Shown here: positions 3,295 through 43,250 of the stretch, piece by piece | How positions within the stretch are numbered: position 1 is the stretch's first letter | Layout of the letters: each line of letters starts with the position of its first letter | Origin: Rhodocytophaga rosea | Lineage (GTDB): Bacteria > Bacteroidota > Bacteroidia > Cytophagales > 172606-1 | Direction: 5' to 3' | DNA length: 64,000 nucleotides | Assembly (NCBI RefSeq): GCF_010119975.1 | Contig: NZ_CP048222.1 | Location: 4,420,501-4,484,500 of the forward strand | Program-made: the position numbers and the translations under genes | The notes under the pieces: model-generated | Databases searched by the model: none | Seen by the model: only the letters and a program-made list of their open reading frames with translations | What the model was told of the DNA's origin: nothing

Positions 3295-5760
3295 TCAGAA
3301 TTGAACTGTAAATGTGGTTCCTTCGCCTAACACACTTTCTGCCTCAATGGTACCTCCGTTATTTTCCAGCATACGTTTGATCATGTACAAACCAATGCCA
3401 GATCCTTCTACATGGTTATGAAAGCGCTTAAACATGGTGAATAAATTCTGCTGCTGGCTGGCAGATAGACCCAGTCCATTATCAGTTATTTTCAAAATTA
3501 CCCTTCCATTTTCTTCATAGGTTGCAAGGCAAATCTGAGCCCTACGGTCTGGAGAACGGTACTTAATAGCATTCGAAATCAGGTTGAATAAAATACTCCG
3601 CACATTCTGACGGGAATAAAAAATACGTTCCACACATAAGTTCAGCTTGATTTGAACACCCGACTCCTGAATGAGTTCCTGCAGATCCGACTGAATCCCG
3701 GTAAGCAGGTCGGGGAAGAAAATGGTTTCCTTTTCCTCGCCTGTCTGCCGTTGTACTTTAGCAATCTGTGTCAGGTCATGAATGGTTTGTTGTAAACGGC
3801 CTGCCGAAAGATCGATCATATCCAGGAGTTCTTGTCCTTTTTCGTCGAGTTTGCCAGAAGAATTCCTGCGGAGGTATTTGAGCAAACCAATTAAAGAAGT
3901 AACCGGAGATTTTAAATCATGGGAGGCCGCATATACAAAATTATCGAGGTCAATGTTTACTTTCGTTAACTTCTCATTTGTTTTGGCCAGATTTTCGTTG
4001 GTGTGTAACAAAGCTTCATTGCTGGCATGAATTTCATCGTTGGCAGCTATTAATTCTTTGTTTGCTTTAGCTAATTCTTTACTCAATGCCTGTAGCGCCA
4101 GCTCTCCTTGTTTGCTTTCTGTAATATCCAGAACCACCCCAGCTATTCTGACCGGCTGCTCCTGCTCATAAAATACCTGTCCTTTTACAGAAATCCATCT
4201 CCGTTCTCCATCTGCCCTTATAATCTGGCACTCAAGCTGTAAAGTGCCTGTAGATCGTGCCATACTGAAACTGGCTTTTACATTTTCCCGGTCTTCTGGT
4301 ACAACATGGGCTATAAATGTGTCAATTCCCCATTCAGGTAATGTGCTTTGGTAGCCAAAAATCTGGTCATGGTGCAGCGACCGCAGCGATTGATCTGTTT
4401 GCAGATCCAACTGCCAGGTGCCCATTTTTCCAGCCTCTAAGGCAAGCCGCAGATTTTCTTCGCTGTGTTCTATCTTTTGCCTTACCTCTATTTGTTCGGT
4501 TACTTCAAAGGCAAATACCAGAATGCCATTAATCTCTCCTTCAATATCCCGCATGGCCTGGTATACAAAATTTACATAAATCTTTTCCATTTGGCCGGTA
4601 TTAAACCGGTCGATGGTGAGGGGCACTTCCTTCCCGATAAATGGTTTGCCTGTTTGATATACCCCATCCAGGATCTCCTTAAAGGGTTGCGAACGCAGTT
4701 CAGGCAAGGCTTCCAACAGCGTTTTTCCGATTAGTACCCGGTTAGAAAATAGCTGCTGATAGAGCGTATTCACCAGTTCGAAAGTATGTTCAGGGCCTTT
4801 TAAAATACAGATCATAGCCGGTGCATCCCGGAACATATCCTGCAATAGCTTGGTCTGCTTTTCTGCTTCTTTCCGGGCAGATTGCTCCATTGCCATTTGT
4901 TTCTCCCGTTCCGACTCCTGTTTGCGTTCGGTAATATCCATTATAATTCCGGAAATACCCATAGGGGTTCCCTTCATATTATAATATGCTTCTCCTTTGA
5001 AATGAACCCAGTGAATACTTTTATCAACCCGGCGGATACGCACTTCACAATCCAGATAACCATTTTTTAGTCCTTGCTGGTAATTCTCTTTAAACACCTT
5101 CTTATCTTCTGCTACAATATGGGCTAATAGAATAGCCTGGTTCCATTCCTGTAAAGCCTCCTCATATCCGAAAATCCGGTCGTAGCCAACAGAACGGGTA
5201 ATGGTTCCCTGCACAAGGTCTTCGTGCCAGGTACCCATTTTCCCGGCTTCCAGAGCCGTTTTAAGCAGTTCTTCATTACGTTCTGCTTTCTGGCGGGCTT
5301 TCACAGAAGTAGTTACTTCACTGGCTAACTGGATAATACCAATCACTTCGCCTGCCTCTTCTCTAACCGGCTGATAGAGTATATTAAAATAGCAGAGTTC
5401 CATTCTGCCATTCCGTTCTAAAGGTGCGGGCATTTCGTTACCGGAGAATGATTTTCCGGTTTTCCATACTTCCTCTAATATCTCCTCAAATCCTTGTCCG
5501 GCTACTTCCGGTAAGGCCTCAAACAAGGGTTTGTCCAGTACTTGCTCCGGATTACGCCCCCAGATTTCCCGCATCACCGGATTGGCAAAGGCAATGGTAT
5601 AGTTTTTACCTAAATAGATGCCAATAGCTACTGGTGCTTGAGCGTATGATTGTAATAACAGTTGGTTCTCAATAAGAGAAGAAACAGAATTTTTCAAAGA
5701 GAATATGCAGGTTTTGGAATGGGTAACAAAGGCATCTAAGATAAAATTCAAATGTAGCAC
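3295..5760 (-). CDS. Multi-PAS sensor histidine kinase
   Basis: This 821-residue soluble kinase has no membrane segment. There are four PAS/PAC modules at roughly residues 35-150, 165-280, 300-430 and 435-555. Modules 1/3 and 2/4 are alike (both 2 and 4 begin ALEAGKMGTW; both 1 and 3 contain an LFEALPE/LLEALPE segment), so a two-module block was duplicated. A heptad-rich linker with NE/TNE repeats (555-605) leads to the HisKA domain with phospho-acceptor His in AASHDLKSPV, then a HATPase domain with N box (NLISNAIKY), G1 (DNGLGL) and G2 (GSGIGLYMIK). No receiver domain or partner regulator is adjacent, so its output must be encoded elsewhere. PAS modules usually sense ligand, redox or light; none is identifiable here. 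Confidence 0.9.
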   Translation of the reverse strand: MLHLNFILDAFVTHSKTCIFSLKNSVSSLIENQLLLQSYAQAPVAIGIYLGKNYTIAFANPVMREIWGRNPEQVLDKPLFEALPEVAGQGFEEILEEVWKTGKSFSGNEMPAPLERNGRMELCYFNILYQPVREEAGEVIGIIQLASEVTTSVKARQKAERNEELLKTALEAGKMGTWHEDLVQGTITRSVGYDRIFGYEEALQEWNQAILLAHIVAEDKKVFKENYQQGLKNGYLDCEVRIRRVDKSIHWVHFKGEAYYNMKGTPMGISGIIMDITERKQESEREKQMAMEQSARKEAEKQTKLLQDMFRDAPAMICILKGPEHTFELVNTLYQQLFSNRVLIGKTLLEALPELRSQPFKEILDGVYQTGKPFIGKEVPLTIDRFNTGQMEKIYVNFVYQAMRDIEGEINGILVFAFEVTEQIEVRQKIEHSEENLRLALEAGKMGTWQLDLQTDQSLRSLHHDQIFGYQSTLPEWGIDTFIAHVVPEDRENVKASFSMARSTGTLQLECQIIRADGERRWISVKGQVFYEQEQPVRIAGVVLDITESKQGELALQALSKELAKANKELIAANDEIHASNEALLHTNENLAKTNEKLTKVNIDLDNFVYAASHDLKSPVTSLIGLLKYLRRNSSGKLDEKGQELLDMIDLSAGRLQQTIHDLTQIAKVQRQTGEEKETIFFPDLLTGIQSDLQELIQESGVQIKLNLCVERIFYSRQNVRSILFNLISNAIKYRSPDRRAQICLATYEENGRVILKITDNGLGLSASQQQNLFTMFKRFHNHVEGSGIGLYMIKRMLENNGGTIEAESVLGEGTTFTVQF

Positions 5761-5970
5761 TGCGGCTATTTAAAATACATTACAGGCTGGAAGAATATAT
5801 ATCGTAAGCACTTTTTATATTTAATCTTGTATTGGCTCTATGCTCCATTGATCCAATATTCTATATAAAAAATCAACTTAATGAATTGATAAAGATAAAT
5901 GTAAAGCATAGACTTTCCAAAAGTCATATTCTGTGCTAATTATTGTACAACCAATGTGTAATAAAATTGT

Positions 5971-17624: not shown

Positions 17625-18353
17625 ATGAAATTATTAATATTCGTACTTTTAACTTTAAGTTGCTTAAAAGCAAATGGACAAGATTTTAATAAAAACATTG
17701 ACAAAGATTCATTGCTTCACGTGCTAGTTAAGAATTTGCCTAAGAAAAAGAAAAACGAATTACTTAAGCATTACAAAAAGGGAAATGAACAAGCTAAAGA
17801 GTATATTCTCTTTATGCTTTCTATGCCAAGAAGTAGCAAAAAAGAGCAAATTGAAAATCTTGAAAAGAATAAACTAGAAATCTTCCGGCTTAAGGATGAA
17901 TATGTAAAACTTATTCCTGATAGTTTAATTGCCTGCTTAGAATTTAATCCTAAGAATGTGCTTGTAAGTACGAATAAGAGCGTTGATTTAAAAATCTATA
18001 AAAAGCTAAGTGAGGGGAAAAATGAATCAATTTTTCAGGAATGGAATTTAGAATATGATTCAGATGCTTTAAATAATGGAATTAAAATCTTAGGATGGAA
18101 TAACGATACGCTGTTGTTTATAAAGCAACTGCTAGACAAAGCAAATTTTGTCTCTATTGAAAATGGGAACATAACAACAATCGGTTTTGCAAGAAGTGGC
18201 ATGGGCAAATACTTTTACAAGATATTTAAAACAGATTTAGGTGAAGAGCAGAAGTTGGAATACAATGATTCCTGCTCTTATATATTTTACAAAGACAATA
18301 TTGTTTTAGAATATGGAGGGGGTGCGATTGGACCCCAATGCTTTCCTGATTAA
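17625..18353 (+). CDS. Secreted hypothetical protein in cassette-like setting
   Basis: 242 residues. A signal peptide (MKLLIFVLLTLSCLKANGQ) is followed by a Lys-rich helical region (KNLPKKKKNELLKHYKKGN) and a mixed alpha/beta C-terminal part ending in GGGAIGPQCFPD. I recognise no family. The gene is clearly more A/T-rich than its neighbours, stands alone, and is tightly bounded by an 11-base perfect inverted repeat, with an attC-like dyad region after it. This is the arrangement of a captured gene cassette, though no integrase is in the window. Confidence 0.75.
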   Translation: MKLLIFVLLTLSCLKANGQDFNKNIDKDSLLHVLVKNLPKKKKNELLKHYKKGNEQAKEYILFMLSMPRSSKKEQIENLEKNKLEIFRLKDEYVKLIPDSLIACLEFNPKNVLVSTNKSVDLKIYKKLSEGKNESIFQEWNLEYDSDALNNGIKILGWNNDTLLFIKQLLDKANFVSIENGNITTIGFARSGMGKYFYKIFKTDLGEEQKLEYNDSCSYIFYKDNIVLEYGGGAIGPQCFPD

Positions 18354-18360
18354 TAAAAAC

Positions 18361-18475
18361 ACTTGCTAACACCTACTTCGCCGATCAGCGGCTCCCTTCA
18401 GCGCAAGGCTCAAGCGTTATAAGACCGCCGTCGGGAAGTTGTGTTCCGTTACGTCTATACTTTACAACGTTATCT
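18361..18475 (+). repeat. attC-like element (putative cassette recombination site)
   Basis: A GC-richer 115-base non-coding segment begins ACTTGCTAACAC and ends ACAACGTTATCT. TGCTAAC (18363-18369) would be the R'' core and GTTATCT (18469-18475) the R' core, with imperfect self-complementary sequence between. The two cores are not full complements (GTTAGCA expected) and neither fits the strict RYYYAAC/GTTRRRY consensus. The call is tentative and rests mainly on the matching TGTTAGCAAGT before the gene. Confidence 0.35.
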
Positions 18476-18493
18476 CATTTCAAATAAAGCACC

Positions 18494-18796
18494 ATGAAAA
18501 AACCAGAAGAATGTGAAGATATGACTGAAATCCGCCAGGAAATTGACGAAATAGACCAACAAGTTATTCACTTGTTAGGTCAGCGTTTTGCGTATGTGAA
18601 AGCGGCCTCTAAATTCAAAACCAGTGAAGCTAGTTTGAAAGCCCCGGAGCGGCTTCAACGGATGCTCCTTGAACGAAGAGCCTGGGCTGAAACTGCTGGA
18701 TTAAACCCGGATGTAATTGAGAAAATGTACCAGGATTTAGTAAGTTATTTTATTGAAGAGGAAACTAGGCAGTGGAAAAGCCAGCATGGCAAGTAA
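18494..18796 (+). CDS. Chorismate mutase type II (AroQ/PchB-like)
   Basis: 100 residues, all-helical. The chorismate mutase II pattern is present: IRQEIDEIDQQVIHLLGQR at the N-terminus (catalytic Arg equivalent in the R-x-x-I-D segment), FAYVKAASKFK (Lys), then PERLQRMLLERRAWAETAGL and the closing IEKMYQDLVSYFIEEE. The LL-R-AWAE-GL segment is closer to isochorismate pyruvate lyases (PchB) than to AroQ of phenylalanine synthesis. No salicylate or siderophore gene is adjacent, so simple chorismate to prephenate activity is also possible. Confidence 0.8.
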   Translation: MKKPEECEDMTEIRQEIDEIDQQVIHLLGQRFAYVKAASKFKTSEASLKAPERLQRMLLERRAWAETAGLNPDVIEKMYQDLVSYFIEEETRQWKSQHGK

Positions 18797-18913
18797 AATT
18801 CTGCTAAAAAGCTACTGTTGAAAATAGGCTAAACAATAACTTTGCCTTAAATTATAAATCTAATGCCTTACATGGCAGATGACTCAAGTACAGGAACTTA
18901 AAATGAAAAAGCG

Positions 18914-19105
18914 ATGAATGGATTAATTTCTATTATAGCATTACTAATGGTCTTTAGTACCGGCTTTACAAGGGTACAGCACCAGAATAGTTAGAGGCCC
19001 ACAATGCCTGTGATCAAACCGGATACTACAATTGCCTTTAAAATTCTGATCGTAAAGCCTGATTCTACCACTCATTTTCCTATGCCCATATTAAGACCTG
19101 ACTGA
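18914..19105 (+). pseudogene. Small secreted-protein frame interrupted by TAG
   Basis: A 64-codon frame starts with a hydrophobic signal-like segment (MNGLISIIALLMVFSTGF). It meets TAG at 18992-18994 and continues with two similar segments, MPVIKPDTT and ILIVKPDSTTHFPMP, ending PILRPD. The KPD repeats suggest a real short envelope protein, now broken. No family recognised; it could also be chance. Confidence 0.35.
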
Positions 19106-19127
19106 TAGTGATTCTGATTATTGCAGA

Positions 19128-19538
19128 ATGGTTGTTTCAAGTAAAAATCAAAACTTATATAAAGAGAAATTTGTGGGAATAAGGCTAAATAAAAGAACAT
19201 TTGTACGCTGGAAGATTTATATCGACCGTGCCAGAATGTATATTGGTTACATCCAGTTTTTTATGATCGGCATCGTGTTTTTTGAATCATTTAAAGATAA
19301 AACTCTGGGTAAATTAGTGTATGACTACATTTATATCTCCATTCCCATTCTCTTCATACTCTTTATTTTCTGTTCCCTGGTCTTGGGCTATTTTGATTCA
19401 AGATTGGGCTTTAAAGAGGAAGAACAACGGAATATCTCTAAATCAAATCCGGTTCTGATGGAAATCTTGCAATCGGTAAAAAGGCTGGAGAAAGAGGTAA
19501 AAGAATTGAAAGAACAGAACAAAGAAAAGATCAATTGA
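19128..19538 (+). CDS. Small two-helix membrane protein with coiled-coil tail
   Basis: 136 residues. A basic N-terminus (about 35 residues) is followed by two membrane segments (YIGYIQFFMIGIVFF; YIYISIPILFILFIFCSLVL) and a cytoplasmic C-terminal helix (LMEILQSVKRLEKEVKELK) with heptad spacing. I know no named family. It probably oligomerises through the tail. Confidence 0.6.
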   Translation: MVVSSKNQNLYKEKFVGIRLNKRTFVRWKIYIDRARMYIGYIQFFMIGIVFFESFKDKTLGKLVYDYIYISIPILFILFIFCSLVLGYFDSRLGFKEEEQRNISKSNPVLMEILQSVKRLEKEVKELKEQNKEKIN

Positions 19539-19668
19539 TAGGCTATCCGGCTGGCAATAAATCTATCAGGCATTTTCTTTCCAGAACCATAATACAATTG
19601 AATCACCATAAAAACCGCTTTGGTATCTGTCACCCGAATGAAAAAAACCGAATAATCTGCCATTACCT

Positions 19669-20109
19669 ATGATAGAAGAACTTCAGAAATTATATGACCG
19701 GGACATAGAACGCCTAAGGAAAGAAATTGAGGCATTTACTCGGGAAGAGCATCTCTGGCAAATCAGAGGGCAAATTATCAATCCTGCCGGAAATCTGGCG
19801 CTGCATCTGGTGGGAAACCTTTCTACTTATATCGGAAAGAACCTTGGGCAGCAACTTTATGTCCGGAACCGGGAGGCTGAGTTCAGTTCTAAAAATATCC
19901 CCAAACAAACCTTGCTGGAACAGATATCAACTGTGAAAGCAATTGTACATTCTACGCTGCAAACAATCAAACCCGAAGATTTACATCAGACCTATCCGGA
20001 AAATGTGTTGGGTTATGAAATGACTACCGGCTTTTTTCTGATACACTTACTGGCGCATCTTTCCTACCATCTCGGGCAGATTAACTATATCAGGCGGATA
20101 TTGGAATAA
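19669..20109 (+). CDS. DinB-superfamily protein (DUF1572-like)
   Basis: 146 residues of four-helix-bundle type. His residues that bind metal in the DinB/YfiT fold are seen in ALHLVGNLSTYI and HLLAHLSYHLGQINYIRR. Members are thiol-dependent S-transferases or unknown metal proteins; the small DUF1572 branch is typical of Bacteroidota. It stands alone ahead of the acetyltransferase. Confidence 0.75.
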   Translation: MIEELQKLYDRDIERLRKEIEAFTREEHLWQIRGQIINPAGNLALHLVGNLSTYIGKNLGQQLYVRNREAEFSSKNIPKQTLLEQISTVKAIVHSTLQTIKPEDLHQTYPENVLGYEMTTGFFLIHLLAHLSYHLGQINYIRRILE

Positions 20110-20221
20110 GCTCATAATAGCTTATCTAAGCAGCCACTATTTTGATACATTGCTTTTCTAAAAAGCGCTGATGATTGAAAGATCAGCTGCTCATATTGCC
20201 ATCAATCCTAAAACTACCACT

Positions 20222-20674
20222 ATGGCCATCGAAATCCGAAAACTAGAAAAACAAGACCTCGATACTTTTATTGCCCTGATCCGGGTATTTGAAGATGTGT
20301 TTGAGATGAAAAATTTCACTATGCCCGATGAAAAGTATTTACAAGCATTGCTGGCAAAGGATAGTTTTTTCATCTTTGTAGCCTTATCTGATGGTGAAGT
20401 TGTAGGCGGCTTAACAGCCTATACTTTGGAGCAATATTATTCTACCAAACCCCTGGTATATATTTATGACCTGGCCGTGACAACCCAGTTACAGCGGCAG
20501 GGAATCGGCAGAAAACTAATGGCTTCCATTAATGAATACTGTAAAAATACCGGTGTAGAGGAAGTGTTTGTGCAGGCCGATGAAGTAGACGATTATGCTC
20601 TGGAATTTTACCAGGCTACCGGAGGCATCGCCGAAAAAGTAGTCCATTTTAACTATCCCCTGAATACAAAATAA
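20222..20674 (+). CDS. GNAT acetyltransferase, AAC(3)-I-like
   Basis: 150 residues from ATG 20222, chosen because the family fold begins at IEIRKLEKQDL; a longer in-frame start lies at 20171. Acetyl-CoA binding motif A is YIYDLAVTTQLQRQGIGRKL. The AAC(3)-I hallmark C-terminal part FVQADEVDDYALEFYQATGG follows. Known members acetylate the 3-amino group of gentamicin or fortimicin, but chromosomal relatives are widespread and many give no resistance. The next gene, 27 bases downstream, is an APH-like kinase. Confidence 0.8.
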   Translation: MAIEIRKLEKQDLDTFIALIRVFEDVFEMKNFTMPDEKYLQALLAKDSFFIFVALSDGEVVGGLTAYTLEQYYSTKPLVYIYDLAVTTQLQRQGIGRKLMASINEYCKNTGVEEVFVQADEVDDYALEFYQATGGIAEKVVHFNYPLNTK

Positions 20675-20701
20675 AACTTTCGAACAAACGATTTTGTCTG
20701 C

Positions 20702-21706
20702 ATGTCTACCTTTCCGGTAATAGATTCTACCTTATCACCAGTTCATCTGGCTGCCTGGCTCATAGAAAAATATAACCTGCATTTCCATACCAGTTGCCGC
20801 CTTTTCCGTACCAATATGAACCATACCTATATTGTTTCGGAACAGGAGAAGAAATACATATTAAGAATTTACAGTTACAACCGGCGTTCAGAAACAGAAA
20901 TAACTGAAGAACTCCGCCTGCTGAACCTGCTGAAAGCCTCCGGAATACACGTTTCCTACCCGATCGCAGACAAAAATAATAACCTTCTGCAAAAAATTGA
21001 TGCACCAGAAGGCATGCGGCATGTAGTTCTGTTCTCCTTTGGAGAAGGCCATAAAATACGCAACCTTACGCAGGAACTCAGTTATAGCATTGGTTCCTTA
21101 CTGGCAAATATGCACACTGTAACCCTTCATCAGCCTATCAACCGGATACAATATAATATAGATAGCTTGGTTGCAAAGGCATATCAGCAGGCGAAGCTTT
21201 ATATATCGGAATCGTTAGAGGAAATGAAATTTATCCAGGCATCTGCAGAGGTATTACATGCTGTATTTGAAGCCTCAGCAGCGCCGGATATACGCCGGGG
21301 AATTGTACACCTAGATGTCTGGTATGATAATATGAGTATAACTGATGCAGGTAAGATCACTCTGTTTGATTTCGATAACTGCGGAAACGGATGGCTCGTA
21401 CTCGATATTGGCTATTTCTGCATGCAGTTATTCTATACCCAGCCAGACAAAAAAGAATACGAATGCAAGTTGCAAAGCTTTCTGGATGGCTACCGGACTA
21501 TCACCAGCATTCCTGAAGAGGAAATACAGTTAATTCCTTATGCCGGACTGGCCATCTGGATATATTACCTGGGTGTGCAGGCAGAAAGATTCGATAATTT
21601 TTCGAATATTTTCTTTACCGAGAACTACGTAAAAATGTACATCGGCAAGGTAAAAGAATGGGTAAACTATCATCATATCAACATACACACAGCAGCTATC
21701 TGCTAA
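20702..21706 (+). CDS. APH/choline-kinase-like phosphotransferase
   Basis: 334 residues of the aminoglycoside phosphotransferase fold. The N-lobe contains YILRIYSYN (the K of the usual lysine is replaced around R/Y), the catalytic loop HLDVWYDNM matches HxDxxxxN, and the metal-binding LFDFDNCG matches DFD. The general layout resembles SrkA/homoserine kinase II-type enzymes. Substrate unknown: aminoglycoside, sugar, homoserine or protein Ser/Thr are all possible. It is 27 bases from the acetyltransferase, so co-transcribed. Confidence 0.8.
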   Translation: MSTFPVIDSTLSPVHLAAWLIEKYNLHFHTSCRLFRTNMNHTYIVSEQEKKYILRIYSYNRRSETEITEELRLLNLLKASGIHVSYPIADKNNNLLQKIDAPEGMRHVVLFSFGEGHKIRNLTQELSYSIGSLLANMHTVTLHQPINRIQYNIDSLVAKAYQQAKLYISESLEEMKFIQASAEVLHAVFEASAAPDIRRGIVHLDVWYDNMSITDAGKITLFDFDNCGNGWLVLDIGYFCMQLFYTQPDKKEYECKLQSFLDGYRTITSIPEEEIQLIPYAGLAIWIYYLGVQAERFDNFSNIFFTENYVKMYIGKVKEWVNYHHINIHTAAIC

Positions 21707-21738
21707 TTTCTATTGTGCTGAAGTAACCAGACAATCCT

Positions 21739-22641
21739 ATGAGACAAATTCTAAGGCTTTACTTTCTTCTAACTATACTTCTCTATTCATGTCAGCAAAC
21801 CGATCAAAAACAAGAGGCCGCTGGCTATACTATGAAAAATTACCTGGACATTATTGCTTATAATGAGCAAATGGAAAAAAATTATCAGGCTACCGGCAAG
21901 GCAATCTATCCATACATTATAGAAATCAGCAAAGGCCATAAAAAACTTATCTTCGTAGGCACACGGCATACCAGAGAGATTACCCAGCAAGCTGATAGCA
22001 TTGACCATACATTCTGGAGATTAGGACCCCAGGTTGCATTTAATGAAGGAGGGCAGGTAACCCAAACGTATGCCAGCCGGGATGAAGCCATTCGCAAAAA
22101 TGCAGAAACCGGCCAACTTAAATATTTATGTGATAGCCTGGGTATACAGATGCAGAATGGAGATTTAGATGTGGCTACCGAAGTAAATGCTTTGTTTGAA
22201 AAATACGGAAGAGCAAAAGTGCTGCTGTACCTGGCCAATGAACGTTTTTTTGATTTATATGTCCACAACTGGATAGATACCACCGCCGGATTAGAAAAAA
22301 CCTACCAAAAAGAATTTATAGAGTATCTGCAAAATGATGGCGTAGTGCTTAAAGAGGAAGAAAAGCCTTTTTCCTATATTCAGAAAGTATACCAGGATTT
22401 TTTCAATCAGCCGCTTAACATATATGCAATTCCGGCTGAAAAATTCTATTTCCTCAGCGATGGCGGCGAACTTACTGAAATTGGCAGAAGTTCAAAAGTA
22501 GTGCGGGATGTGCATTTGCTGGGAAAAATAGAAGAAGCTTTCAAAACATACGACAGGGTTTTTGTGGTGTTTGGAGGCGCTCATGCTTTTGTTGTCGAAC
22601 CTGCTCTTCACCAGATCATGGAAAAACAAACTACCAGATAA
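21739..22641 (+). CDS. TraB/Tiki-like lipoprotein
   Basis: 300 residues. The lipoprotein signal is LRLYFLLTILLYSCQQ. The EreA/ChaN/TraB/Tiki superfamily pattern is visible: FVGTRHTRE (first H), QVAFNEGGQ (Glu), a long helical middle, and the final VFVVFGGAHAF (GxxH). Characterised relatives are metal-dependent peptidases or hydrolases; here the enzyme would sit on a membrane facing the periplasm. It follows the kinase gene by 32 bases. Confidence 0.6.
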   Translation: MRQILRLYFLLTILLYSCQQTDQKQEAAGYTMKNYLDIIAYNEQMEKNYQATGKAIYPYIIEISKGHKKLIFVGTRHTREITQQADSIDHTFWRLGPQVAFNEGGQVTQTYASRDEAIRKNAETGQLKYLCDSLGIQMQNGDLDVATEVNALFEKYGRAKVLLYLANERFFDLYVHNWIDTTAGLEKTYQKEFIEYLQNDGVVLKEEEKPFSYIQKVYQDFFNQPLNIYAIPAEKFYFLSDGGELTEIGRSSKVVRDVHLLGKIEEAFKTYDRVFVVFGGAHAFVVEPALHQIMEKQTTR

Positions 22642-22866
22642 TTGTTCCAATCAGCACTCATCTATTTTCAGATAGACTTGCTACCAATACAAAACAGGTT
22701 TCATCTATAGCCCGAAATTTTAGGAAAATTCTGATCTGCTGCATGATTTATTCAGGTTATAAAATGTTTATGCTATTTTTTACAGAGGCATTCGTTATAC
22801 TCTCTATCATTCAAAATTTATAAGCATATTTAACCGTATTTTCTGCTACCTAGCTAGTCGCTGTTT

Positions 22867-25583
22867 ATGAAGGAATTTTTTGAAAAACTCTTTTCTGCCG
22901 GAGATTTTATGCCCCATGGGCACTGTTATTTCTGGGAATCTGATATTCTCTGGACACATGTAGTATCCGATGGGCTGATAGGAATCTCCTATTTTGTAAT
23001 TCCACTTTGTCTCATTTTTATAGCCCGCCGCCGCATCGATATTCAGTACCGGTGGATGCTGGTGCTGTTTGGCATTTTTATTTATAGTTGTGGCACTACC
23101 CATTTGATGAATATCATTACCGTTTGGAACCCATTGTACCGGCTGGAAGGCATCATCAAAGTAATTACTGCCATATCTTCTGTGGGAACAGCCTTTGCCC
23201 TTATTAAAATTACTCCGAAAGCACTTGCCATTCCCACTGCCAAAGAATGGCTGGACGTAAACATGGAGTTAAAAGCCCAGGAAAAACAATTGCAGGAGAA
23301 AGACCTGGCGATTCAGCAATCCGAACAGGCATTGCGGGAAAGTGAAGAACGCTACAATACCCTGCGTGACATTTTTGACAGTGTAGTGATTCATCAGGAC
23401 AATAGTATTGTATATGCCAATCCGGCGGCAGTTAGCTTGCTGGGTGCCCGTGAGGCAAAAACGCTGATTGGAAAATCTGTTATGGACTTTGTACACCCGG
23501 AATTTACCGGGGTCATCAAAGAAAGGGTGCAGGCAGTTGAAGAAGGCCAGAAACTTCCAATGATAGAACAAAAGATTATCCGCCTCGATGGCACAGAAAC
23601 AGACATTGAATCGCTTAGTGTCCCTTTTACTTATAATAATCGATCAGCTACCCAGGTTATTATCCGCGATATCAGCGAACGCAAGAATCAGGAGCGGATT
23701 TTAAGGGAAAGTGAAGCCAAATTCAGAGGTCTGTTTGAGTCGAATATGATCGGCACCTTATTCTGGGAAATTAATGGCAAAGTAACCAATGCCAACGATG
23801 CCCTATTGGAGATGATTGGGTATTCCCGCAGCGATCTGCATCAAGGCCGGATTGACTGGGTACAAATGACACCTGAAGAATATAAAGAACTTGATCAGGA
23901 AGCCTACCGTCAGATTATGTCAACCGGCATACATGCGCCTTACGAAAAAGCCTATATCCGCAAAGATGGCACCCAAGTCCCTATTCAGGTCGGAGGTGCC
24001 TTTATCAAAGGATATACCGACAGAGGGGTATCCTATGTGATTGACATTACCGAGCGTAAGAAGCAGGAAAAAGAACTCCGGGAGAGCGAAATCAAATTCA
24101 GGCACCTGTTTGAGCTGGATATGCTGGGTGTGATTTTCTCTGATGCAAATAATAACATTACCGATGCCAATGATGCTTTTTTACAGACTATCGGTTATTC
24201 CCGGGAAGAACTTAATTCGGGCGTGTTACAATGGCAGCAACTCACTCCACCAGGATATGAACTGCAGGATCAGCAAGCTATACAAAGTTTGAGAACGACC
24301 GGTTCCGTATCTCCTTATGAAAAAGAATATATCCGCAAAGATGGAACAAAAGTACCTATTCTGATTGGAGCTTCTTTGTTGAAAGATACACGTAGCGTAA
24401 TAGCATTTGTGCTTGATATAACCGAACAGGATAAGGTACGGAAAGAACTCAAACAGCGTGCGCTCGAACTGCAGGTGCTGAATGCTGAGCTGGAGGAAAG
24501 CCAGGAAGTATTGCGCCTGAGCGAATCCAGGTTCCGGCGTATGTTTGAATCCGATCTGATCGGCATTGTGTTCTGGGATAAAGCAGGAAATTTCCTGGAA
24601 GTAAATAACTTGTTTTTACAAACGATTGGATATACCAGGGAAGAATGGGAAAGGGGTGAGATCAACTGGATTGCCATAACCCCTCCGGAATATGCGGCCT
24701 TAGATCAGCAGAAACTGGCAGAAATGGATGAAAAGGGTATGTTTTCTTCCTATGAAAAAGAATATTTCTGTAAGGACGGTTCGAGGGTATCTATTCTACT
24801 GGGGGTACCAGGCTGGAAGGTTTCACTGACAGAGGCGTATCATATATTCTGGATATTACCCACTTAAAAAAGGTGCAGAAAGAGCTGGAAGAAAGAGCCA
24901 GGGAACTCGCCCGTTCCAACGAAGAACTGGAGCAATTTGCCTATATCGCCTCTCACGACTTACAGGAACCCCTGCGGACAATGGCCGGATTCGCCAATTT
25001 GCTCGAGAAGAAATACAAAAACCGCCTCGACCAGGATGCCAATGAGTTCATAGAATTTATTGTGGATGCAGCCGAGCGCATGAAAAAGCTGATCACCAAC
25101 CTGCTGGAATATTCCAGAATCAATAACAAGGAAGCACCATTTGGGGCTGTTGATTTTAATAAGGTGGTAAGTAAAGTAATATACGGCTTGCAGAACAAAC
25201 TCCAGAGCGGCGATGTAGAAATAAAGCTCAATCAGTTGCCGGTATTGCAGGCAAATGAAGGACAAATGCAGCAAGTATTCTCACATTTGCTGGGAAATGC
25301 TGTAAAATTCAGAGATGAACGTCCTTTAAAAATTGAGATCTGGGCAGAAGAGAAAGATACCCAATGGCAGTTTGCTGTAAAAGATACTGGCATTGGTATT
25401 AATATGGCCTATGCTACCCGTATTTTCCAGGTATTTCAGCGTCTACATACCAGAGATAAATATGAAGGCACCGGCATTGGTTTATCGGTCTGCAAGAAGA
25501 TTGTGGAAAAACATGGCGGTGAAATATGGGTAGATTCTGTTCCGGATGTAGGTTCTACTTTCTACTTTACCATCAGGAAGTGA
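22867..25583 (+). pseudogene. Ethylene-receptor-domain PAS sensor histidine kinase, frameshifted
   Basis: One gene of about 905 codons, read as two frames (22867-24867 and 24873-25583). N-terminus: three membrane helices like plant ETR1, with Asp35, Tyr42, Ile72, Cys75 and His79. These match ETR1 Asp25, Tyr32, Ile62, Cys65 and His69 at a constant offset of ten; Cys65/His69 bind the copper cofactor. Next come a heptad linker (125-160), four PAS/PAC modules (about 160-275, 285-400, 405-520, 555-670), HisKA (IASHDLQEPLRTM) and HATPase (GTGIGLSVCKK). Adding one G to the five-G run at 24801-24805 restores LLGGTRLEGFTDRGVSYILD, parallel to VGGAFIKGYTDRGVSYVID of the second module. Without the correction the first product lacks the kinase. 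Could be a sequencing error. No receiver protein is adjacent. Confidence 0.85.
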
Positions 25584-25724
25584 TGGGATTCAATTAGCGG
25601 ATTAAATATTATTAGATTGTAAGATTAATATCAAAGCTCCAAGTAGCTGTAAAGTTATTATAAGGCATTGCAATAAGGAAGGATTGTCGCTTCAGCAGGA
25701 TGTTAGTAGCAAACTTTTCTATAA

Positions 25725-26183
25725 TTATTCATATGTAGGAGCATAAGGTAAGGATTTAGCATACATTGTATCTTGATAAAAATTAATAGCCCATTTGTTT
25801 GTAATCGCTTTCTTTAAATCAATAATCAATAAGTCTGTATGGTTCTTTTTAATATACAACTTTTCTTTTCTCATATTGGGAAAAACAAAGCGAGCAGCGA
25901 AGTCTATTGATTCAGTAGTTGATATAATTTGTTTTGCTTTAAAGTCATTGACTTCAAGTTCGATTAAGTCTGCAGTAAATCCTTGCTCAAAGTATATGTA
26001 GATTGAATCGGGATGGATATATTTTTCTACACCTTCAATACGCCTTCTCTTTAAAGGAGTATAATCAACGGAAGTTTTGTTGCTACCTTCAGTAGTCAAG
26101 GTACTTTTATTCCCTTCATAGTTTTCTGAACAGGCAATTAAGTAAATCAAAAATATTAGCCCAACTCTAAAAATTAGCTTCAT
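25725..26183 (-). CDS. Hypothetical lipoprotein
   Basis: 152 residues. The signal FRVGLIFLIYLIAC gives a lipobox LIAC. The remainder is rich in beta-prone and charged residues (YIYFEQGFTADLIELEV) with no recognised domain. The gene is A/T-rich compared with its neighbours and probably belongs to the cargo zone. Confidence 0.65.
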   Translation of the reverse strand: MKLIFRVGLIFLIYLIACSENYEGNKSTLTTEGSNKTSVDYTPLKRRRIEGVEKYIHPDSIYIYFEQGFTADLIELEVNDFKAKQIISTTESIDFAARFVFPNMRKEKLYIKKNHTDLLIIDLKKAITNKWAINFYQDTMYAKSLPYAPTYE

Positions 26184-26234
26184 AATACTTCTGATTTCGC
26201 CTAATATGTGTTTATACCCAACTAAAGGCTGTAA

Positions 26235-27773
26235 TTAGTTGCTTTGAGCGTCTGTCTGGAGTCTGGAGTTATCGGTATACATGGTATTTCCAATCGTTTC
26301 CAGCAGTTGTTGGAGTACGGTATCTTTGCCTTTTACTTCTTCTTCAATCATCCGGTTGATGGGCATATCGGGCATAATGCCTTTGCGGGTATTGGCACAA
26401 CTTTTATCATTTACCACGATAGCCGTAGGAACAAACACCTGTAAGCCGGTATTTGGTAGTTCGAGTAATACCACATTGCCAAAAGAAAACGAAGGACTGG
26501 CGCCGCATTCTTCGCCTACAATTGTGCCCAGGTGATGTTCCTGGAAGAATTTAGCGAACAAACCTGCAGCTGAAAAACTGTTTCCATTCACAAGCAAATA
26601 TACTTTGCCTTTGAATTTCAGCTTTTCATTGGCAATAAAATGATCCCGGCTGGAGAAGCGGATAAAATTTCCGGCAGGTGTATGGGCAATTTTGGAAGCA
26701 TACGAACGATGATTGAAATTACGCAGCAGGAAATGCATAAATCCCTGTTTTTTCATTTCCTTCAGCAACTGACTGGATTTTACCTGAAAGTCGCTTTCTA
26801 TGTTCTGCTGGCTGATATAGTTCAACAGCAAATGTGCATTATAAATCATACCTCCCGGGTTATCCCGCAGGTCAATGATCAGGTTCTGGGTGCCATTCCG
26901 GTTGAGTTCTTTAAAGCTTTTATCCACAAATTCCCAGAAATGCATTACTTCATTTCTTTCGGAAATGCCCTCAAAACTATTAATGTCCATATAGGCGGTG
27001 GAAATAGGCGCATGCAGGGTAAGTGTCGGACGGGTTTTCTGCTGGTTATTGGCTAAAATAATTTCTTTTGCTGTAATACCCGGCACATGCACGGTAACCT
27101 GGCTTGTATCCGACTGATAGACAATAGTATACTGGTCGGTAGGCTCATACAACATCCAGTACAGGATATTAAAGCGTTCCAGGCTTTCCAGTTGACGGGT
27201 TTTGAAAATAGATAAACCAGCATCGGCGCTGCTTAAAGCATACATTTGCTGTAAAATCTCTGAAACCGGCTTATTATTGATAGAAATAAGTTGCCTGCCA
27301 GCTACGGTTGAGTCGAGAAATCCTGAAAAATCATGATGGATATACGTGCTTTCTCCTTCAAATAACAAAGTAAGAGGGAAAAAGCGGCCTCTGTTATGAA
27401 TATACCGGGATAAAGAATTGTAATTGCCTGCATCCAGGTGTCCGTCGTTAATGGCTGCCAGGTAAGCTTTCACCATCACAGTAAACTCAGATTCTGTCAG
27501 CTGGGCATAATAGGAGGAAGAACGGTGCCTTTCCATGCTATCGAGCAGGCTGGTGAATTTCTGGCGCAAGGTAAGGCTATCAGTATAGCAGTACAGGCAA
27601 GGGTGTGCATCCTGTAATTTTGCATTCAGATACAGCAGGTCGTCTATACATTTACTGGTTTCGAAGCGGGTTTGCGCATTCTCATTGGCTTGTTTACTAC
27701 CTACCAACTGAGTGTAGCCGGTAAACCAATGCAGTATAAAAATGAATAACAGGCGTAAAAATTTAGTTGCCAT
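26235..27773 (-). CDS. S41-family peptidase, secreted
   Basis: 512 residues from the ATG at 27773, chosen because the signal peptide MATKFLRLLFIFILHWFTG starts there; an upstream ATG at 27791 is possible. The tail-specific protease fold shows LIIDLRDNPGGMIY (strand and loop before the active site), and VYLLVNGNSFSAAGL contains the nucleophile Ser. GEECGASPSFSFGNV follows, and no Lys is placed as in CtpA, which is typical of the tricorn/interphotoreceptor-like S41 branch. Expected to cleave C-terminal regions of periplasmic peptides. No PDZ domain is evident. The gene is monocistronic. Confidence 0.85.
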   Translation of the reverse strand: MATKFLRLLFIFILHWFTGYTQLVGSKQANENAQTRFETSKCIDDLLYLNAKLQDAHPCLYCYTDSLTLRQKFTSLLDSMERHRSSSYYAQLTESEFTVMVKAYLAAINDGHLDAGNYNSLSRYIHNRGRFFPLTLLFEGESTYIHHDFSGFLDSTVAGRQLISINNKPVSEILQQMYALSSADAGLSIFKTRQLESLERFNILYWMLYEPTDQYTIVYQSDTSQVTVHVPGITAKEIILANNQQKTRPTLTLHAPISTAYMDINSFEGISERNEVMHFWEFVDKSFKELNRNGTQNLIIDLRDNPGGMIYNAHLLLNYISQQNIESDFQVKSSQLLKEMKKQGFMHFLLRNFNHRSYASKIAHTPAGNFIRFSSRDHFIANEKLKFKGKVYLLVNGNSFSAAGLFAKFFQEHHLGTIVGEECGASPSFSFGNVVLLELPNTGLQVFVPTAIVVNDKSCANTRKGIMPDMPINRMIEEEVKGKDTVLQQLLETIGNTMYTDNSRLQTDAQSN

Positions 27774-28455
27774 AGGCAGTACATAAGGCATAGGTTATAG
27801 AGAAACAAGCAATATGAAATATATTTTCTACTGCAATTTCCAGCTTGAGCCCAGCACCTGATTTAGGTTGCAAAAGTGGTGTATTGGCTTTGCATGTAAA
27901 ACATCCAGGATGAGTAAAAAAGCAGAAGATTGCCTACAGAAGGCCGATTGAATTATATCTTCCGGAATACTCCGGTTTCCAGGAATTTACCTGAATTGCC
28001 ATCAGAAAAGTAAGTTAAGAATTATTTTTTACAGGTCCAAGATGTACCAAGGGCTAGATGAAATTTTTTATAAAATGCCTTTTGTCCTACATTTTATAAA
28101 GCTTTTTGATGAAACCTTGCTAAAGAAATGCCCTAAGAAAATTTGTTACAGTACAGCAGGATGTATAGCTACATTTGTTGGAATACTGTTGTAGCATACA
28201 GGCGAAATTGCTCCCGGTATTGTGGCATGGGCGGCATCCTAAAATCTCCAGTCAGGGTACAAAAATGTACTTAAATCGTGCTAAAAATGGGAAAGTAGAG
28301 TGTTTAATTTCCAGCTATAGATAAATAATGTATTCAGATTTTCTTTAATTGCAGCCTGTAACATATCTCCTATTGTAAAAGCCTTTCATTAAAAGTAAGT
28401 GCAGAGTATGTGGGCTTACTCATTATAGTAATAAATAACCAAGCAAGTATTCAGT
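27774..28455. other. 680-base stretch without a supported gene
   Basis: All six frames are closed at short intervals. Some stretches resemble gene remnants by composition but I cannot assign them. No clear hairpin or repeat. Confidence 0.5.
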
Positions 28456-29085
28456 TTAGACTTCTTTGTATACTTTTTCAATTTTAATGACTTTAGCCTT
28501 CCCGAATTGGTGTCGGCCCATATGTTGAGGTGGATTTCCTCCTGAAAGATAGGGATAGTTCAATTCAATGGCTGAACCGCCTTGATCAACCATTTTTTCA
28601 ATTTGCTGGTACACTTGATTTACTCCTTGTGAGTCTAATCCTCCAACATTAAACAATATATTATTACTTTTACTCATGCAAGCCAAAAGAGCAAGCATTC
28701 TTCTGGTATTCCCTCCAAATCTATTCAAAGGCAGTGCTGGCTTACTAATTAATTCGTTTAGAATCTGATTTCTTTCCGCCTTTAAAAGTTTACTATTCTT
28801 TTTCAAATACCGCTCAGGTGTAGTCGGATAAAAATGTTCCTTAAACCAGTCATCTCCTTTATAATCTTCAATATACATAAACCGTTTTATAAGTGTAAGG
28901 GCGTTATGCGTCTGTTTCCCGCTTAACAATTTGATTAATTGAGATTCTATTTTTGATCCTACACCCTCATTTTGTTCCGTATCTTGAGGCAGCCATAAAC
29001 TAATTACCTGTCCTTTCAGTAATTCAAAAGGAGAAATCCAATATCCATTGATTGTAAATCCTGTCGATATAATGATATTACTCAT
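28456..29085 (-). CDS. Degenerate ABC-ATPase-like protein
   Basis: 209 residues from the ATG at 29085; a TTG at 29106 would add seven. The C-terminal half looks like an ABC ATPase: GGNTRRMLALLACMSKSNNI in place of the LSGG signature helix, ILFNVGGLDSQG where Walker B and the D-loop stand, and a following helix. The Walker A P-loop is not present: after the strand LLKGQVISLWLP comes QDTEQNEGVGSK, without GxxxxGK[ST]. The Walker B catalytic Glu is not evident either. It may be a regulatory or dead ABC subunit. It lies 32 bases downstream of nuoD on the same strand. Alternative: an unrelated helical protein. Confidence 0.55.
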   Translation of the reverse strand: MSNIIISTGFTINGYWISPFELLKGQVISLWLPQDTEQNEGVGSKIESQLIKLLSGKQTHNALTLIKRFMYIEDYKGDDWFKEHFYPTTPERYLKKNSKLLKAERNQILNELISKPALPLNRFGGNTRRMLALLACMSKSNNILFNVGGLDSQGVNQVYQQIEKMVDQGGSAIELNYPYLSGGNPPQHMGRHQFGKAKVIKIEKVYKEV

Positions 29086-29117
29086 ATTTTCTATGGTTGC
29101 GAACAAACTGAGTGTTA

Positions 29118-30344
29118 TTACCTGTCCACTTCACCCATTACCAGGTCGAGGGAGCCAATAATGGCGATCAGGTCGGCAATGAGGGCACCTTTAGAAATTT
29201 CGGGTAAGACAGATAAGTTATGAAAACAGCAGGAGCGGGCTTTACAACGGAAAGGAATATCACTTTTGCCATCTGCCCGGAAAAAATAACCCAGTTCGCC
29301 TTTTGGGTTTTCAGCCCGGATATAAAAATCCATTGCTTTCGGGCGGATCTTTTTGGGAACCATTGCTTGCGGATCAAAGTCACGGGTACGTTTCAGATCG
29401 GTTTGTAACCTGTCCAGGCATTGTTCGATGATTCGCAGGGATTCGTGGCATTCCAGTACGCGCACATTATTCCGGTCCCAGCAATCGCCCAAAGTCCCCA
29501 TTTCACCGCTGCCAATCGGTATTTCAAATTCCAGTTCAGGATACACCGAATAGCCATCCACCCGGCGTAAATCAAACCGCAAACCGGAAGCCCGTAAAAT
29601 GGGTCCAGAGCAACCATAATTAATAGCCATTGGTAAAGGAAGTATGCCAATGTTTGCGGTTCGCTGTATAAATATTTTATTTTCGATAACCAGTTTTTGT
29701 AGTTCCAGCAATTTGGGTTTCAGGTAGCGGACAAAATCCCGGCAGCGTTCTTCAAATCCTACTGGCAAATCGTAAAACAAACCTCCGATCCATATATAAT
29801 TATAGAGCATCCGGGCCCCACAGGTCCATTCGAGCAGGCGCTGAATATGTTCCCGGTCACGCATGAGCCACAAAAAAGGGGTATACGCCCCAATATCCAG
29901 TCCATAGGTGCCAATGGCTACAAAATGAGAAGCAATGCGGTTGAGTTCTGCTACCAGCACCCGGATGTATTCAACCCGTTTGGGAATCTCTTTTTCGATG
30001 CCCAGCATTCGTTCCACACCCATTACATAGGCATGTTCATTGTTCATGGCAGCCAGGTAATCCATGCGGTCTACATAGGGAATCACCTGGTTATAGGGCA
30101 TGGATTCGGCATGTTTTTCAAAACAGCGGTGCAGATAGCCCACATGCGGCACTACATCTACGATCAGTTCGCCGTCGGTAATTACTTCAATTCGTAATAC
30201 GCCATGGGTAGAAGGATGCTGTGGTCCCAGGCTCAGAATCATTTCCTCCCGCTTCAACTGTTCAGGCTGGTATTTATTTGGCTCCGAAAGATGGAAGTTT
30301 TCTGGCTTGTACTGGTATTGAATAGAGTTCTGAGGCATCTGCAT
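29118..30344 (-). CDS. nuoD: NADH-quinone oxidoreductase subunit D
   Basis: 408 residues, full length for the 49-kDa subunit of respiratory complex I. Diagnostic segments: [15 protein letters not shown] (quinone-site His/Thr region), [33 protein letters not shown], and the C-terminal [19 protein letters not shown]. In the enzyme it lines the quinone pocket together with NuoB. No other nuo gene is found on either side, so it is outside a normal nuo operon: an extra copy, or a relocated sole copy. Somewhat divergent positions ([23 protein letters not shown]) fit relaxed constraint. Confidence 0.9.
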
Positions 30345-38979: not shown

Positions 38980-43146
<4,167 letters not shown>

Positions 43147-43250
43147 AAGCTGGCAAATTTAGATGCAGAAGGCTAAAAAAAGCTGGTAAAGTTCAGAAAT
43201 TGAAAAGGTAGAGGTCTTTCTATCAAATATAGAGAAAATATCTAACCAGT

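Follow-up and report, generated by a model that had tools for sequence, protein, structure and literature searches.

An ethylene-receptor-type sensor histidine kinase locus in Rhodocytophaga rosea, with sensor and kinase parts in different reading frames

The locus described here lies in a window of 64,000 nucleotides (the whole stretch of DNA that was analysed; positions 4,420,501 to 4,484,500 of NZ_CP048222.1) from Rhodocytophaga rosea, within a single contig of 8,983,451 bases. A frame opened by the ATG at 22867 (+ strand) ends after 666 codons at the stop at 24865-24867 and encodes a receptor domain and four PAS units; HisKA and HATPase_c are read from 24804-25580 in a second frame, which is open from 24774 to 25583. 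The initial annotation had placed one gene over 22867-25583, and this was not borne out, since the sensor and kinase parts are in different frames. Its description of the domain as the head of a PAS-rich kinase in a Bacteroidota genome is correct in that the gene is or was such a kinase, but the frame break that parts sensor from kinase had been missed. The features are listed in Table 1. Two more histidine kinase frames, recognised with a kinase profile, are present in the window at 3298-5769 (-) and 38983-43158 (-). A separate sensor kinase gene elsewhere in the same genome (L333 4483-6934, at about 164.5-166.9 kb) is split between its H-box and its ATPase by an insertion of about 1.1 kb, which carries two ORFs on the opposite strand resembling a transposase pair.

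Table 1 Features of the receptor kinase locus, in window coordinates
Feature	Position	Strand	Basis
Ethylene-binding domain (ETR1_N), residues 1-122	22867..23232	+	PF25487, residue register
Predicted helix 1, residues 25-55	22939..23031	+	AlphaFold2
Columns 35 and 98 of the alignment	22969-22971 and 23158-23160	+	Alignment
Predicted helix 2, residues 62-87	23050..23127	+	AlphaFold2
Predicted helix 3, residues 91-120	23137..23226	+	AlphaFold2
PAS unit 1	23344..23697	+	Pfam PAS families; PAS profile from window protein
PAS unit 2	23704..24078	+	Pfam PAS families; PAS profile from window protein
PAS unit 3	24079..24450	+	Pfam PAS families; PAS profile from window protein
PAS unit 4, begun in first frame, completed in second	24520..24887	+	PAS profile from window protein
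Frame-change site (-1)	24801..24811	+	Sequence, frames, profile and blast break points
Stop codon closing the sensor frame	24865..24867	+	Sequence
HisKA (phospho-acceptor), second frame	24927..25127	+	PF00512, E 8.1e-14
HATPase_c, second frame	25257..25577	+	PF02518, E 2.8e-27

The N-terminus was initially assigned to the ETR1-type ethylene-binding domains, and Pfam agrees: PF25487 (ETR1_N) matches residues 27-122 with an E-value of 1.3e-35 and a score of 122 bits against a curated cut-off of 27, with profile positions 2-97 of 97 aligned. A chance match is excluded by an E-value this low and a score so far above the cut-off. When a profile search of the N-terminal domain was run as a check on the assignment, PF25487 came out as the best match, ahead of any other membrane domain. 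The NCBIfam family MASE3_PAS_HK was considered as a competitor and rejected (170 bits against a cut-off of 560, over residues 25-277, which are mostly PAS). Solved structures searched by sequence, either with the domain alone or with a 26-sequence profile, gave no match at E up to 1. AlphaFold2, supplied with a 26-row alignment, predicts three long helices (mean pLDDT 89, pTM 0.74), as the proposed ETR1-like layout requires; predicted helix 1 carries Asp35, Tyr42, Ile45 and Pro46, helix 2 carries Ile72, Cys75 and His79, and helix 3 carries Lys98.

For the comparison with ETR1, we added its sequence to an alignment of 259 bacterial domains. The numbering was checked at 16 residues, 14 of which are named in PMC8982231 and PMC12643061; the remaining two, Tyr32 and Ile62, were taken as the initial annotation gives them. 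In the alignment, Asp35, Tyr42, Ile72, Cys75 and His79 coincide with ETR1 Asp25, Tyr32, Ile62, Cys65 and His69 at the offset of ten that had been claimed. This offset is constant through His79 but not past the loop between helices 2 and 3, where it becomes seven (Lys98 corresponds to ETR1 Lys91). Ile45 and Pro46 likewise match ETR1 Ile35 and Pro36, and all seven of the seven binding residues are in register with ETR1 together with Lys98, Asp35 and Lys98 both being present in the window domain. In ETR1, 43 of 111 aligned residues are identical to the window domain, and a profile of the bacterial domains gives ETR1 92.6 bits. The seven required residues of ETR1 we take to be Asp25, Tyr32, Ile35, Pro36, Ile62, Cys65 and His69. 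They were reportedly identified by Wang et al. 2006. Seven residues are described as required for ethylene binding in PMC11819568 and PMC6944256, and PMC12643061 gives the ETR1 copper site as Asp25, Cys65 and His69, the counterparts of Asp35, Cys75 and His79 here.

The frame change is of -1 and falls inside the fourth PAS unit, in or directly beside the five consecutive Gs at 24801-24805. With a PAS profile made from the window protein, this unit is split, the first frame covering profile positions 3-99 and the second frame positions 101-124. A same-genus relative (L046:8712-12215, genome G001) is a single open frame of 1168 codons with six PAS units and shares 56% identity with the sensor piece of the window locus and 69% with its kinase piece. 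In blast alignments to this relative, the first piece reaches residue 906 and the second begins at residue 907. The pieces thus meet without a gap, and what changes is the frame alone, the coding matter being complete. Domain order is the same in the two loci. PAS units number six in the relative and four at 22867-24867 of the window, the repeat number thus differing between orthologues of one genus, and the relative has Met at the Ile72 position, indicating that one pocket residue is not fixed even within the genus. Its neighbouring genes differ, with no further shared gene in the compared stretch, and no conserved gene neighbourhood was found between the window and the compared stretches L045, L046 and L047. 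Its genome shares an identical domain row with NZ_JAUKPO010000004.1 of Rhodocytophaga aerolata KACC 12507. A paralogue in the R. rosea genome (G000:C1 around 1235 kb, L045:7283-9619, -) is intact over 779 codons and has the same seven residues. Sensor and histidine kinase are joined in one polypeptide in both the relative and the paralogue, but not at the window locus.

The frame break is best accounted for by a recent frameshift or by an error in the sequence. Both halves are otherwise intact, which argues that the break is either recent or a base-calling error, and relatives lack it, which makes a conserved programmed frameshift unlikely. On whether the change is a sequencing or assembly error, the gene being whole in the organism, we are evenly divided. 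The site lies at a short G run, there is no gap relative to the same-genus relative, every kinase and sensor motif is kept in one or other half, and the genome is in a single contig, as from long reads; against this, a run of five Gs is short, and PAS and kinase parts share a frame in all 14 other PAS kinases checked in the same genome (13 loci and the paralogue), a set that covers a small part of the genome and forms, with the window, the 15 listed of 26 matches. A real and recent mutation, with this copy turning into a pseudogene and the paralogue serving as back-up, is also quite conceivable, if somewhat more doubtful. The paralogous EBD-PAS kinase is indeed intact and kinase decay does occur in this genome, as in the interrupted gene at L333 4483-6934, which lies at one of the 13 loci just mentioned, but neither half of the window gene shows a second lesion. 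If the break is real, the gene would yield a sensor cut in its fourth PAS and no kinase, and a complete receptor kinase would come from the paralogue. We consider it very improbable that the G run acts as an intrinsic slippage site or phase switch, at which ribosome or DNA slippage picks between a kinase-less sensor and the full receptor kinase, because even though five Gs stand at the break and the two frames join exactly on the relative, the site lacks conservation (in both the same-genus relative and the paralogue, the frame continues across it) and five bases are short for phase variation; a further elaboration, in which slippage would give both products and the kinase-less EBD-PAS sensor, along with the intact paralogue, would dampen or titrate the signal, is about as improbable.

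Ethylene-binding domains had been introduced as best known from plants and cyanobacteria, which undersells their spread, as PF25487 is found in many bacterial phyla. PMC11819568 mentions putative ethylene receptors in other bacterial phyla, and PMC7700396 names proteobacteria and cyanobacteria as carriers. At E <= 0.001, we found PF25487 in 58 of 291 Cytophagales genomes sampled for the order (57 above the Pfam cut-off), in 21 of 395 sampled in the phylum, some of them shared with the order sample, in 45 of 146 genomes from the phylum of a cyanobacterial MAG (44 above cut-off), and in 23 of 299 from the phylum of a Pseudomonas; in each of these four surveys, none of 14 control genomes had it. 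Named genomes searched with the window protein alone gave no relative, and a pattern scan of them with eight closer sequences gave 339 stretches encoding one. Among the best 80 of these 339, 79 fall in nine phylum-level groups, including Pseudomonadota (31), Bacteroidota (17), Myxococcota (11) and Verrucomicrobiota (7). Frames from the order were scanned for further domains in 76 of 80 cases (two fragments, one truncated frame and one with unread bases were excluded), and HATPase_c was present in 67, HisKA in 56 and PAS_3 in 37. With most frames matching kinase domains and 37 of 76 matching PAS_3, EBD-PAS-kinase is the usual build. Three loci (L060, L067 and L068) have open frames of 163, 169 and 208 codons, barely more than the ethylene-binding domain, with no in-frame kinase.

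In a quick tree of 157 rows and 131 columns, the window row belongs to a strongly supported (starred) set of 11 rows, all from the same order, and is nearest to the same-genus relative (63% identity) and the paralogue. This set is nested in a wider Cytophagales/Bacteroidota group with support of 94, which is not starred, and most other domains from the order belong to a second group, far from this one and distinguished by another N-terminal motif. By this placement, the domain is a long-standing inhabitant of the group and not a recent gift. The literature searched, mostly outside subscription papers, contained no title on ethylene receptors in Bacteroidetes, Cytophaga or Bacteroidota; PMC10452086 names Bacteroidetes for ACC deaminase. 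The locus adds a well-preserved ethylene-type sensor, along with an intact paralogue, in a Bacteroidota genus for which the literature searched contained no experimental work.

All seven residues are present in 51 of 80 rows from the order (two rows being fragments of one gene), in 77 of the best 80 named rows, a selection made for similarity to the window type and partly shared with the order rows, and in 179 of 259 distinct rows from all searches. The 259 remained of 280 hits after identical rows had been merged and three hits dropped, one for being short and two for unread bases. Some rows lack the Cys, for example those of Glu/Gly type in one family of the order and of Thr/Ser/Ile type in another, and these are unable to bind copper in the same manner. 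Such domains at L118, L119, L120, L122 and L114-L117 (Glu..Gly or Ala..Gly; Thr, Ser and Ile types) score above the Pfam cut-off and head long open frames; judging from their residues, they are likely not to be copper/ethylene sensors.

The same domain set revealed that the copper-site Asp (column 35) and the basic residue of helix 3 (column 98) co-vary across bacterial domains. In the 226 rows that keep Cys75 and His79, Asp35 is paired with Lys or Arg98 in 194 and both are missing in 22; 5 have Asp alone and another 5 the basic residue alone. The Fisher p of 3e-21 for this association ignores kinship. Of 112 columns, it is column 98 that shares most mutual information with column 35. When kinship is considered, the best tree provides 13 independent contrasts, of which, in the median pairing, 8 go the same way and none the other (sign test 0.008); column 98 again ranks first of 112. 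Counted on strongly supported branches alone, the independent pairs number 4, of which about 2.4 go the same way and 0 oppose it, and with so few significance is out of reach. In the earlier set of 157 rows there were about three events, and the 2 pairs on starred branches did not suffice for a test; the association held with more rows. Ser or Asn with Leu is a recurrent natural pair at the two columns. A salt bridge between the copper-site Asp and a conserved Lys, taken from an AlphaFold model, is described in a review, PMC13012798, which also gives about 100-fold lower affinity for an Asp-to-Asn receptor. The covariation is in line with this reported salt bridge. We regard it as the most useful by-product of the analysis, since the domain set puts a structural claim to an evolutionary test and names the natural Ser/Asn plus Leu domains as a class whose ethylene affinity can be measured.

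The locus is, very probably, that of a bacterial ethylene-receptor-type sensor histidine kinase, from a gene line for Cu(I)/ethylene sensing of which this copy is broken by a -1 frame change. The protein is of a known kind, and ethylene binding by the domain is likely. In the intact gene line, the three-helix membrane domain would hold Cu(I) via Asp35, Cys75 and His79 and bind ethylene; binding would move helix 3, and the change would pass through the string of PAS units to the HisKA/HATPase core, altering autophosphorylation and phosphotransfer to a response regulator that would be encoded elsewhere. Among the ten neighbouring ORFs scanned (17625-30344), none has a receiver domain. In this assembly's copy, the -1 change within the fourth PAS leaves sensor and kinase in different frames. 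Conservation of Asp, Cys and His is necessary for ethylene binding but may not be enough. The domain might bind Cu(I) and yet sense copper itself, CO, another small alkene or redox state, a reading which we find unlikely: retention of the copper ligands suits it, as does the scan of ten neighbouring ORFs, which found no physiological link to ethylene, but all pocket residues beyond the copper ligands are retained too, and ethylene binding is known from bacterial domains that carry these residues (PMC11819568).

As an ethylene-receptor-type kinase, the protein can be set beside three known receptors. With Arabidopsis ETR1, it has in common the three-helix Cu(I)/ethylene-type domain with the seven required residues and the helix-3 Lys, recognised here from sequence, and the histidine kinase output, ETR1's architecture being given in part after PMC12643061. 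PAS repeats here stand in place of ETR1's GAF domain; in addition, no receiver domain was found here, and sensor and kinase are in different frames. AzoEtr1 of Azospirillum brasilense, an EBD-PAS-HK protein of 525 aa with the seven residues, binds ethylene and acts on biofilm and root colonisation (PMC11819568). The bacterial EBD-PAS-HK build and the seven residues are common to both, but AzoEtr1 has one PAS where the window locus has four, and a response regulator gene directly downstream, whereas none is present in the ten neighbours scanned here. SynEtr1 (Slr1212) of Synechocystis is a bacterial ethylene receptor kinase with the same domain, which is fused there to a phytochrome-type light-sensing part; PMC6944256 describes a cyanobacterial kinase with an EtBD coupled to a phytochrome domain.
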